Part shown: positions 14,943-20,900 of the stretch, in pieces | How the letters are laid out: each line of letters opens with the position of its first letter | Numbering within the stretch: the first letter of the stretch is position 1 | From: Haliclystus octoradiatus | Taxonomy: Eukaryota; Cnidaria; Staurozoa; Stauromedusae; Haliclystidae | Reading direction: 5' to 3' | Length of the DNA stretch: 64,000 nt | NCBI GenBank assembly: GCA_916610825.1 | Contig: OU744450.1 | Coordinates: 24,822,850 to 24,886,849 of the forward strand | Made by a program: the position numbers and the translations under genes | The notes under the pieces: model-generated | Seen by the model: only the letters and a program-made list of their open reading frames with translations | Told to the model about the DNA's origin: nothing | Database searches by the model: none

Positions 14943-17900
14943 TAAAAAGTGGGAAAAGTGCATTTCGTATGATCTGGAAAGGAAATCGAAATATTGCTGA
15001 AAATCTCAAGACTATACCCATTATTCCAAAAGAGAAACTAGATTTTAAAACACACAGTCCAGAAGAATTTATTGAAACAGCGCTCAAAACAAAGCAAGGT
15101 AAGATGGACAATGAATAGTATGATCTATAATTCAATCAAACCTCGTTATAGTAGACGTAGCCCTACGTAGCCCCTGACGTAGTCATACAGAGCAATCTAT
15201 GTATAACTTATACAGTATACAGATATACTTGTTGTTGTTGTTGTTGTTGTTGTTGTTGTTGTTATTGTTGTTTTTGTACGTCTTATACAGTATAAGACGT
15301 AAAAGAATTGGAGCACACAACTTTCGAAGCTCGAAGATGGCCATTTTCGTTTCATTGAAAACGAGGTTTTGCTTTTGAACGAAATGTTTTTCGAGTTCAA
15401 ATGAGTGACTATTTTCGCGGGATTTGTTCAAATTTCCCAGGCCTGTATTTTACGGAATGAAATTCGCGCCCATAAAATCATATGACTTGCATCTATCTTA
15501 TCCTATATGCGAGCTTATATGGGAATCCATGAGCGGAACATGAAAGAGTGTCCCAACTCTTGTAAGCACATGCTAATTAGTGAACACTTGGTTAAAATAG
15601 CAAACATCTACCTGTTTAGGTAGCAAATTTTCTATAATGTAGTTGCGCAACAAATAAACTTTTCAAATTTTATCATGTATAACAATTAAAAGTTGAAATA
15701 TAAAAATAATTATATTTTTAGCATAATTTACTCAGATATATTTTACTTTAAATTTATTTGAAATTGAACTTTGGTAATATACCTAATTTTTCGAAATCTA
15801 ATAATTTCCTCTTAAATACTTAGATATGATATTCCCATTATATGAAGGAGATATGTTCCTGGACAACAGAGATGAAGAAGTTATCAATTTGCAAATGGCT
15901 GACTTTCAAAAAAGAAACGCAATACCATTTCGAAGAAAAATTTGGCGAACAAGAAATATACCTTATGAAATTGATCATAGTGGATTCGAAGGACATGACA
16001 AAGGTAACTATACTGTATCAAATCCTTCAAAAAAACTATTTTTAATTTTAAAGTTGTACTTTTGACTTTTGGAAGATGCAGGCCGCTGAAAGTTTCCCTT
16101 GTGGTTAGGGTACATGGTATTGTTATGTATTCTGTTAGAATTCACTGCTTCTGCTTTGGTTTATGTGCGTATATTTGATCTGAAAATAGAGGACCATACT
16201 CATAGACGGTTTTCCCAATCATCATCAATCAATACAAAAAATAATGGCAATAAATTGCATGAAAGGCAAACCTGTATTTGAAATTAATATTTCACCTTAT
16301 ATGATTGATGCAATCAATGTTACCAGTTTACAAATGTGAAAAGTTGAAAGATTGTTTATTAGATTTTTTAGAGTTCGGCCCATGTATGCTCATTTAAATC
16401 TAGATATCGACTGATAAGTAATCGGTTTTCTAAAGATCGACCAGTGTCAGTTGCTTGTCGGTTTCTCAGAGGTCGACCTGAGAGTTCCTGTTTTTCTAGC
16501 TCGACTATATTTCCTATAGAGATCGGATGAAATTCGAGCTTTTCTATAGATCTACTTTTCTAGAAATGGAACGGTCAACTTATATTTTTATCACAAAAGA
16601 AATGCCAGCCGCAAACTCAAAAATAACTCTTCATATACTATATATTTCAATCGTCATGGAATTATTCGTAAGGGATATTCAAAAGTACAGAAATATAAAA
16701 TTAATGATTTGTAACCTGATGATCCCTTTTTATTTCAACAGCTAACATCATTAAAGTGATTACAAGTGCTTTGAATCAGATCAGTAGTACAACATCAAAA
16801 TGTGTTACTTTTGTACCAAAGACAGACAACGACGAACAATGGATACGATTCTTTAAAGGTGTAGGGTAAGATAATATAGAATTATAGATAATCTCAATAC
16901 CCATGATACACTGTAATGTAAGTTTCTAATAATTATGAGAAAGTGTATAACCCTTTGAAATAGCTTACATTGCGTTTTGACAGGGTCGTTCAATTGGAAC
17001 TGGTGCCATGCTCTATCTCAAGAGCTGTACACATTACTGGATCGTTTGCATGATAGCTCATTCAGATTGACTCGTAAATATACAGCGTGAAATATGGCCC
17101 TATGGTGTAATGGTTAGCACTCAGGACTCTGAATCCTGCGATCCGAGTTCAAGTCTCGGTAGGACCTATAATTTTTACAGTTTGCATGATTTAGCAGTGT
17201 AATAACTGAGCAGAATTTTGTTGCGTATTTTTTCAAATTATTTGAAAAGATAAGTATATCCTATAAGATTAATGCCTATATATGGGGTTCGATCACGATT
17301 TGAAGCATCGACTATAGCCAATTGTTGCCTTCTCAAAAAGTGTCTTCTCAGCTCCAATATGGACCCATAAAAAATGGCGCTTTCCCCTAATTTACTTCTA
17401 CAATTGCCAAATAAATCCCGGGTACTTGGTAGCCTGGAGGCTGTGATGTCAATGGACTGATGGTTCCTGTGTGGCTCGAGTCAAAAGAGATCGCTTTTTG
17501 TGAGAAGACAGTAAAGAATTTAATATGTTTATATTAAAAAATATATATTACATTTTTCCAATGCTTTTTGAATTATTCCTCTTTTTGTAAAACGAATTTC
17601 AGAATATTTTATATAATTCTTTTTCTTATTGCAGTTGTTATGCTGGTATTGGTCGGCGATACTTTGATCATTTATCAACCGGTATTTCAATAGGGCCCAA
17701 ATGTGTTGAAGTACCTGTAATTGTTCATCTAACACTCCATGCTTTAGGTAAGAAATAAAACTAGGAATAAATCATACCATAAAATACATGATATTAGCCT
17801 CTGATCACATTTGGAATATATTGCAAGGACCTATTATAGCAACTATTACAGTCATTACTCAAGTTATCTGGAGGCTATAACATTGGGAAGCAAGCAATAA

Positions 17901-20900
17901 TATCAAATTGGCATTGTTCCCCCTTGGAGAAGGTACAGATGTGTCCACGGGATATCCTAGCACCACTAAAAAAAAAAAAAAAAAAATTATATTATATTAT
18001 ATTATATTATTAATACTATTATCCTTATCATTATTTCTACTAATTTACAATATTATAATTAATAACTTACTTTTAAATTCGTATCAATGTATAAACGAGC
18101 ATTTGCTCATTTTGGTTACGAATCGAAATAAAATTATACACACACACACACACACACACACACACACACACACACACACACACACACACACACACACACA
18201 CACACACACACACACACACACACACACACACACACACACACACACACACACACACACACACACACACACACACACACACACACACACACACACACACACA
18301 CACACACACACACACACACACACACACACACACACACACACACACACACACACACACACACACACACACACACACACACACGCACACTACTACCACTATT
18401 GATCAATTTAGTATTTGTGATAGCACTAATTATATTCATGAGAGCTCCTCCATCAATCAATAATGGTTGAAATCTCGCCATCGCATTTCAAACTGAAGAG
18501 ACTTAATTCCCATTTATTTGAATATGTTGCTGGAATTCACAATTCATTGATTAACCTTAAAGTCCATCTTTCCAATGGCGTGCTATAAACTTTCTAGACT
18601 TAAACATGCTGTAAATAGTATGCGGGTCCAACTCTATACAGCGGTCACCTGTCTATAGTGGTCACATTTGCAAAATCAAAATAGTATTTTTAAATGAATC
18701 AGCCCTGTATATAAAGGTCACCTGCATATAATGGTCAATTTATCTACCTCTTACAACTTGTTGTTGTAACAGGTTTCACTGTATTATGGTATTTTATTGC
18801 TTGAATCATATATTAACAATATTTACTGTTTTATATTAGGACTATCTCATGAACATAGTCGACCTGATAGAAATAGTTTTCTTCGAGTTCATTGGGAGAA
18901 TATACAACCAGGTACATGTATAATGTCATTGTGGACTCAATATAATAATATATAAAATATTAATTCAGTAATCAGACAACTTACACTACATTATATATAA
19001 TAATATATAAAATTTTCTAATACATTCATAATCGTTTCAACCAATTGAGCGGAGCAACGTTTTGAGAGCAACGTAATTCCTGAGCTGTTTATTAAATATC
19101 AACGCTAAGATTTATCCTAAATGGTGTCAATGGTGTTATATTTTGCTATCATCAATCTATACTTCTATAAATAAATTAAAATATTTAAAAAACTTACAAT
19201 CTAAAATATTCCTGTGATAAAAATGAAAAGTTTACAAATTACGTTTCAAAGTATTGACCTAATCATTGTGAGTTCATGTTGAGTTGATGGGTCCTATACC
19301 GCATTTCATATATTGCCAGATATCTTGTAGGGTGTGTTGGTGAATTAAGTGAAATTTATTCAGGCTTGAAATTTTTCAATTTGAAAGTCATACTGGTTAA
19401 TCAGAAATTGGGGGTAAAAAATCGCATTCCTTACCGTATTTCACGAATACATTTAAAGCTCCGTTACATCAAGTTATACTGCTGATTGCAATCGAATTAG
19501 CGTCATAGAGGTTGATGGATAGTCCGAAATCCAGTCAATTCCAACGTTGCATCTACATCGGATGGCGTATTACACCTTTCAAATTTAAAACATTTCTCCT
19601 TTATTCTAAGAACGTTTTAATCTCAAGCAAACCGAAATACGAAACATTATACCAACGGTTACCAACGCTGACAGAGCAGAGTGTCTCTTTGGTTTCAACG
19701 TATGATAGAATATGTTCCCTTAAAACAAGACTGATGGATTTCCATATTCTAGATTTGTTCAATTTCAGATAAATTGGGATACTTTGAAAGACACATGTCG
19801 TTTGAATCCGAAGTATTAGAAAGCAAATATGATTTCAACTCAATACTTCATTATGATAATAAAGCATATTCAGACAATAAAAAAGAAACTTTAGCATCAA
19901 TTCATGATCCTGATCTGCCGATGGGAAATGATCAAATGTCAAAGAGCGATGTAAAGAACGTCAGGAATCTTTATCATTGCAAAGGTAATAAGGGAATCCC
20001 ACATGTTGAAGACACATGGGGATGCTCATACAAAGTCTACAAAGGAATGTAGCATTTTAGGGGTTAGGAATGATGTAAAGAACGTCAGGAATCATTATCA
20101 TTGCAAAGGTAATAAGGGAATCCCACATGTTGAAGACTTATTGCACAAGGTATTGAATATTTGCTACTACCACCAAGATCTGTACCAGAGACCGTTTCAC
20201 CCAGGCTCACGCCAAAGGCTGCATCACGATCCCCGCTGGGATGCTCATACAAAGTCTACAAAGGAATGTAGCATTTTAGGGGTTTGCCTTTCAAAAATTG
20301 TTCTTGAACTTTACGATATAAATTTCAAAATTTTTGAAACTGATTGACACGAGTGCATTCATTCGACATCATGCTCACAACTCAAATTTGAAAGTTGCAG
20401 ATGCATCAGTATCTTTGTCCTAATCGTTGAGAATGCTCGAGTGTCAACTCCCATTTGTTATGAAATACTATTTCCCATCGTGAATTTCCAGAATAATCTT
20501 AATGAAATTTTCCAAATACATATCACGTTTGAAGATGTTGATCTTATAGAAAAACGCAGAATAACCACGTTCTGAAAGTTTTTCAATGAAATTTATTACC
20601 TTAACTATTCATGTTTTAATCACATTTGACACTCCCTAATAAAGTGTATACCTCGATTTCACTCAATCGCATAATTGATTTTGAAGGTGTAGATGCATTT
20701 CAAAGTAATGAAACCTGGTCTTCTTGGTCACCATGGTCACCATGTTACCAAGATAAGGAAGGAAAGTGCATGCGCAGTAAACAAAGATTTTGTGTCTCCA
20801 ATGATTTAACAACGTGTCCCGAGGCTGATAAATATGGAGTGGATGACGAGGAAGAAAGTTGTCTCTCAAATGAAAATTGCAATGGTAAATTTCAATCAAA

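Follow-up and report, generated by a model that had tools for sequence, protein, structure and literature searches.

A probable astacin-fold pseudopeptidase, with leucine in place of the catalytic glutamate, in the stalked jellyfish Haliclystus octoradiatus

The stretch of DNA analysed here (the window; 64,000 nucleotides, C6:24822850-24886849) comes from a single assembly, representing one haplotype, of the stalked jellyfish Haliclystus octoradiatus (Staurozoa). Its forward strand carries a predicted gene at 13350-27338, with 15 exons encoding 738 amino acids, in which a pro-domain and an astacin domain are followed by two TSP1 domains, a MAM domain and three ShK domains. Leucine stands where the astacin domain should have its general-base glutamate. 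A Pfam scan of the predicted protein identified Astacin, one TSP1, MAM and one ShK; the second TSP1 and the two further ShK domains were recognised by alignment to paralogues, so that the TSP1, MAM and ShKT modules listed in an earlier note on this DNA are all accounted for. The Astacin match spans residues 133-327 and profile positions 2-189 of 189 (144 bits, E = 5.6e-42, cut-off 22.5). All 14 introns are of the GT-AG type and the spliced frame remains open through 738 codons with no internal stop, in line with the intact splice phases and reading frame that the note reported for the astacin domain; exons 1 and 2 were placed by splice sites and frame alone. The hydropathy of the N-terminus is modest, with a best 19-residue mean of 1.28 at residue 6 that is matched by an internal stretch at residue 210, and the case for secretion is therefore drawn mostly from the domains. 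The encoded protein is probably secreted, modular and extracellular.

The residues of interest are encoded by exons 5-7 (Table 1), which when spliced yield ...VEVPVIVHLTLHALGLSHEHSRPDR...YDFNSILHYDN...LYHC. The zinc motif reads HLTLHALGLSH, in which Leu226 replaces the general-base glutamate of HExxHxxGxxH and no acidic residue is present inside HLTLH. HMMER aligned this motif without gaps to HELNHALGFQHEQ of HCE-1 (3vtg; HELNHALGFQH) and to the motif of BMP1, and likewise aligned SILHY with SIMHY of HCE-1 and the matching motif of BMP1. Splicing and alignment thus bear out the leucine that the earlier note had placed at the catalytic position. At least two base changes separate codon 226 from glutamate, and at least two separate codon 282, at the Met-turn, from methionine. 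No second, glutamate-bearing zinc exon was seen in the gene: across both strands of 13350-27338 the pattern HxxxHxxG has a single occurrence, at 17726.

The remainder of the active site is largely preserved. The zinc ligands His225, His229, His235 and Tyr284 and the cysteines of the two disulphides (C173, C195, C217 and C326), all described as intact in the earlier note, are present and are invariant across the four-gene family made up of this gene and three paralogues. The same is true of Glu236, which follows the third histidine, a position that belongs to the family-specific definition of astacins (PMC9848320). The astacin signature ExxRxDRD is EHSRPDRN here, with the glutamate kept and the last aspartate replaced by asparagine. 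In the pro-domain motif LYEGD, G101 and D102 are invariant in the four genes, and all six paralogue-invariant columns in the pro-domain part of exon 3 are kept. Asp102 is a putative equivalent of the pro-domain aspartate that takes the place of the catalytic water in animal astacin zymogens (PMC9848320). The Met-turn is SILHY, having Leu282 for methionine and retaining the ligand Tyr284.

The three paralogues contain a pro-domain, an astacin domain, two TSP1 domains, a MAM domain and three ShK domains in the same order as the window gene, and all keep HExxH and the Met-turn methionine. The first (C6:25.21 Mb, L061/L062) has HEVLH and SIMHY, the second (C6:26.91 Mb, L063/L064) HELLH and SLMHY, and the third (C2:28.65 Mb, L065/L066) HELMH and SLMQY; judged by these motifs, the sisters would be active peptidases. 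The first two share the contig of the window, at distances of about 0.4 and 2.1 Mb, and the third is on C2. Exons 3-15 of the window gene have counterparts in the paralogues, where the motif exon ends right after HALG or HSLG, and exons 11 and 12 are fused in the second paralogue. Counterparts of exons 1 and 2 were not found in any of the three. Exons were picked by hand where the top-scoring choice did not fit; in the second paralogue this applied to exon 3 and to the fused exons 11-12, and in the third to exon 14.

Overall, the window protein shares 38-41% identity with its paralogues. Its astacin domain is 38-39% identical to those of the sisters, compared with 46-47% when the first sister is set against either of the others and 58% for the second against the third. 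For the MAM domain, identity to the second and third sisters is 35-36% for the window gene and 28-30% for the first sister. The Pfam Astacin score is 144 bits versus 166, 171 and 169 for the paralogues, and the MAM score is 99 bits versus 85, 116 and 121. In a tree of the catalytic domains, the second and third sisters group together (support 95), and the window gene branches outside the three sisters (67).

Comparison with other astacins of the same genome indicates that the substitution is not a matter of chance. Glutamate is found in all 102 other zinc motifs that were read (39 distinct motifs in the first set of loci, 60 further motifs and those of the three paralogues), which leaves the window gene as the only exception seen among 103. 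The search string for the 39 motifs left the second residue free and demanded 12 open residues on either side. The further set consisted of 61 motif exons, of which 60 were read; the unread exons are C4:31241461 and, from another listing, C11:16260388. Six motifs of the further set that were flagged as lacking glutamate had been misframed by the regular expression, and each contains HEIGH or HEFGH. In this astacin-rich genome, a Pfam survey gave at least 151 Astacin exon matches, with 150 of 313 candidates scored. The matches listed in that survey include no exon from the window gene or from the three sisters, probably because the motif exon is short and split; the survey thus has blind spots, and other degenerate or split copies could have been missed too. 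We note that three astacin exons on C4 (C4:10384577, C4:10397700 and C4:10408547) have identical zinc-motif translations with one in-frame TGA per match. They are a young triplication, in which the TGA may fall beyond the end of the exon.

The Met-turn is less informative. Among 36 Met-turn-like strings, 33 have methionine, two have leucine (the window gene and L001) and one has histidine, the last being a false hit from the opposite strand, so that methionine is present in 33/35 astacin-like strings and leucine in 2/35. At the locus L001 (C5:23130735-23131241), a single open frame encodes an astacin domain that contains HELMHVLGFWHEQ and SILHY, and its catalytic glutamate is intact in HELMH. 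Since SILHY is found there beside an intact HELMH, we rejected the Met-turn leucine as a diagnostic of inactivation and treat it as weaker evidence. The SILHY that the earlier note reported is real, but its interpretation as a second inactivating lesion is not supported.

Constraint on the four genes was compared by counting the columns that are invariant in three genes and kept or changed in the fourth. The window gene keeps 46/69 such columns in the astacin domain compared with 98/113 elsewhere (Fisher p = 0.0023), the latter comprising 13/15 in the first TSP1 domain, 18/20 in the second, 28/35 in MAM and 39/43 in ShK. The corresponding values are 46/56 and 98/120 for the first sister (p = 1.0), 46/52 and 98/111 for the second, and 46/52 and 98/113 for the third. 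As no paralogue has such a drop, the extra divergence of the window gene is restricted to the domain that lacks the base. By these sequence counts, the non-catalytic domains of the window gene are as constrained as those of its paralogues, while its astacin domain is more diverged. The changes specific to the window gene at invariant astacin columns score zero or above in BLOSUM62 in 17 of 23 cases, the harshest being Glu226Leu and Arg177Val, and such mostly conservative changes are as would be seen for a retained fold. As to relative rates, in the astacin domain 23 changes are specific to the window gene versus 10 to the first paralogue (binomial p = 0.035), and elsewhere the numbers are 15 and 22 (p = 0.32), with a contrast between domains of p = 0.018 (Fisher). 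Should the window gene be basal, a position to which the tree gives weak support, the count of 23 against 10 would be confounded; the contrast between domains is the better evidence. Selection has acted on the four-gene family.

Table 1. Exons and codons of the predicted gene (positions within the window).
Feature	Position	Strand	Basis
Exon 1 (predicted): start codon and hydrophobic N-terminus, interpreted as a signal peptide or anchor	13350..13470	+	Gene model; no homologous exon found in paralogues
Exon 2 (predicted): pro-domain, first part	14943..15098	+	Gene model; no counterpart found in paralogues
Exon 3: pro-domain, including LYEGD (Asp102 as putative aspartate switch), and start of astacin domain (RKIW)	15824..16003	+	Gene model, paralogues
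Exon 4: N-terminal part of astacin domain	16742..16865	+	Gene model, Pfam
Exon 5: astacin domain with HLTLHALG	17635..17747	+	Gene model, HMMER alignment
Codon 226, CTA (Leu), general-base Glu position of astacins	17729..17731	+	Gene model, HMMER alignment, genome comparison
Exon 6: LSHEHSRPDR, third zinc-ligand His, family-specific Glu	18840..18911	+	Gene model, HMMER alignment
Exon 7: C-terminal astacin subdomain, SILHY (Tyr zinc ligand, Met-turn Leu), last Cys	19769..19984	+	Gene model, HMMER alignment
Codon 282, CTT (Leu), at Met-turn	19846..19848	+	Gene model, Met-turn survey
Exon 8: first TSP1-like domain	20687..20884	+	Alignment to paralogues; the single Pfam TSP1 stretch is 402-451
Exon 9: second TSP1 domain	21628..21807	+	Gene model, Pfam
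Exons 10-12: MAM domain	22606..24966 (22606-22746, 23694-23962, 24870-24966)	+	Gene model, Pfam
Exons 13-15: three ShK-like domains, stop codon	25436..27338 (25436-25540, 26412-26525, 27208-27338)	+	Paralogue alignment; Pfam only the third, 697-732

Several further features were observed in and around the gene. A segment made up of the final 37 bases of exon 7, the donor and the start of the intron (19948-20013) is duplicated 124 bp downstream at 20072-20137 with 65/66 identical positions, which gives intron 7 another potential splice donor. A tRNA-Gln (CTG) gene lies on the same strand at 17096-17167 within intron 4, and long microsatellites occupy parts of intron 5, (AC)125 at 18138-18387, and intron 8, (ATTC)122 at 21090-21578. 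Directly downstream, on the same strand, are the exons of a sodium:solute symporter (29400-36000), in which SSF was called at 31960-32298 and Pfam made no call at 35428-35976; we take this gene to resemble choline transporters. An open frame of 1080 amino acids at 39735-42974 encodes a reverse transcriptase domain, with endonuclease matches that fall slightly short of the Pfam cut-offs, and looks like an uninterrupted element of the long interspersed nuclear element (LINE) type. Two similar stretches of exons, 42949-48301 and 52916-58460, each contain a fibrinogen C-terminal domain (at 47300 and 58083, respectively) and probably represent two genes in tandem; in the second, PAN was called at 52916, and the first is similar there by eye. 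Elsewhere in the genome, the mitochondrial cytochrome c oxidase subunit I gene can be read through with code 4, with arginine where codes 5 and 13 give serine or glycine.

The motif glutamate of astacins acts as general base/acid and is required for catalysis (PMC9848320). Its loss from an otherwise intact astacin domain, in a gene with no signs of decay, supports the pseudoprotease proposed in the earlier note. A pseudopeptidase is a homologue lacking a residue essential to catalysis, and Leu226 takes the place of such a residue in the alignment with solved astacins. As far as sequence can tell, the protein is a member of the astacin family (M12A), and is an astacin-domain pseudopeptidase and not an astacin peptidase. 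We consider it likely that the product of this intact gene is non-hydrolytic and works by binding, the gene having probably changed from one encoding an enzyme to one encoding a binding or structural protein. The astacin domain would fold and, with somewhat less assurance, would probably bind zinc. Lacking the base, it would be unable to polarise water and, from what is established for the family, could not cleave peptides. The cleft may then contact a partner, whether a substrate, an inhibitor or an active sister astacin, and the TSP1, MAM and ShK domains may place the protein in matrix, in mucus or on cells.

What such binding might serve can be put forward only tentatively. Pairing with, or competition against, the active paralogues is possible though doubtful; it is made plausible by the contribution of MAM to dimerisation in meprin β (PMC9848320). 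The fullest version, to which we give a similarly guarded reception, is that of a dedicated pseudo-astacin: the sole member among the 103 motifs that lacks the base and retains the zinc site, retained to partner its active astacin-TSP1-MAM-ShK sisters, or to compete with them, without catalysis of its own, roughly as pseudo-ADAMs persist within their family. As the aspartate switch is retained, a zymogen-like state could be the working form.

A variant of the pseudopeptidase interpretation is that of a structural or adhesive matrix protein, in which function resides in TSP1, MAM and ShK, with the astacin domain serving as a passive, slowly drifting spacer. The constraint results fit this, with ordinary constraint outside the astacin domain and less within it, and a precedent is offered by the sperm ADAMs, in which the pseudopeptidase domain is cut off and seemingly dispensable (PMC11266112). 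On the other hand, the astacin domain is free of stops, its changes are mostly conservative, and the ligands, the cysteines and the pro-domain aspartate have all been kept. A mainly structural or adhesive role is a credible minority view, about as likely as pairing with the sisters.

A number of points weigh against the binding pseudopeptidase that we favour. The Fisher tests involve four sequences, were chosen post hoc and treat columns that are not independent. Given that 46/69 columns are kept, the four zinc ligands would all be kept by chance with a probability of 0.19, and the ligands together with the four cysteines with a probability of 0.03; as retention of the four ligands alone is not significant, the zinc-dependent binding or decoy role suggested in the earlier note stays conjectural. 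Synonymous sites are saturated among the paralogues (pS 0.69-0.85, with dN 0.37-0.69), which makes dN/dS uninformative for the lineage after the loss of the glutamate. The position of the window gene relative to the paralogues is weakly supported in the tree (67), and MAM-driven pairing is carried over by analogy from meprin β. The search for paralogue exons imposed the phases of the window gene, so that agreement in phase is not independent, and the resulting models lack exons 1 and 2. Finally, orthologues were not found in three protein searches, which gave 15 proteins, the same 15 and two proteins. The 15 all have TSP1 and none has an astacin domain by the listed Pfam, and the two are distant astacins, 31-34% identical; this is no proof of absence, as the protein search needs shared exact words.

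The binding pseudopeptidase must also be set against a recent loss-of-function allele or young pseudogene, too new for decay to have appeared elsewhere in the gene. A single haplotype was seen, and in a model of a neutral frame, in which 388/6642 single changes create stops, the probability of no stop is 0.27 at a divergence of 0.01, counting point changes only. At a divergence of 0.05, however, that probability falls to 0.0016. Moreover, codons 226 and 282 each require two or more changes, 23 of the 69 invariant astacin columns have changed and the sister genes are distant. We regard this explanation as improbable. We attach still less credence to the suggestion that the protein remains a peptidase in which a different residue, or bound water, has taken over as the base. 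The zinc ligands are complete and L001 combines a Met-turn leucine with an intact HELMH, but the general base is required in astacins and HLTLH offers no acidic substitute. An error of sequencing, assembly or gene modelling, for which the single assembly might leave room, is highly improbable, since the consensus quality value (QV) is 56.6 with HiFi reads (PMC9975415), each codon would need at least two base changes, no alternative zinc exon was seen in the gene and exons 3-15 have counterparts in the paralogues.

The nearest kind is that of the well-known pseudopeptidase ADAMs (M12B), which resemble the window protein in having a metzincin domain without the base on a modular extracellular protein. 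ADAM7 (HQLGH) and ADAM29 (HHLGH) keep the three histidines without the glutamate and are listed as pseudopeptidases (PMC11266112, Table 2). They differ in belonging to another metzincin subfamily and in their disintegrin architecture, membrane anchor and, in those listed, Met-turn methionine (PMC11266112). Hydra HMP2, which acts in foot morphogenesis, is also a cnidarian astacin with MAM and ShKT modules; compared by description only, it differs in being called a metalloproteinase and in that TSP1 is unmentioned in the passages describing it (PMC8191133, PMC9848320). The ascidian Tast proteins have an astacin domain followed by two or three TSP1 repeats, but are tunicate, sperm-surface proteins of predicted type II membrane topology; MAM and ShK are unmentioned in the parts of the reports concerned, and HrTast2c has HEMLH (PMC6353882, PMC11673157). 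Astacin and TSP1 also occur together in the Caenorhabditis elegans subgroup V astacins (nas-33 to nas-38), which have other further domains and four of which act on cuticle, moulting or eggshell (PMC2824743). Meprins combine astacin and MAM with MATH/TRAF, which was absent from the window protein in a Pfam scan at E 0.001. Proteins combining TSP1 repeats and astacin domains have also been noted in anthozoans (PMC5446238).

No described pseudo-astacin is among the matches listed in the open-access full-text literature, a body that mostly excludes subscription papers; catalogues of non-peptidase homologues were not searched. In the available portions of a review of inactive metallopeptidases, the single mention of astacin is as a family of metzincins, and the M12 entries in the tables are ADAMs and unc-71 only (PMC11266112). 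The authors of the Tast study could not assign a subtype to the metalloprotease domain of C1.332 (Tast2d; PMC6353882), and an atypical astacin-like domain may therefore already be in print without having been called a pseudoprotease.

Should the astacin domain prove to be a spacer only, the interest of the gene would be modest. As it stands, an astacin without its base beside three sisters of the same architecture that keep theirs, all in one cnidarian, is a natural set for the study of non-cutting roles of astacin domains. In Hydra, the astacin HAS-7 limits formation of the head organizer (PMC8191133), and a built-in antagonist of such astacins would for this reason be of interest.

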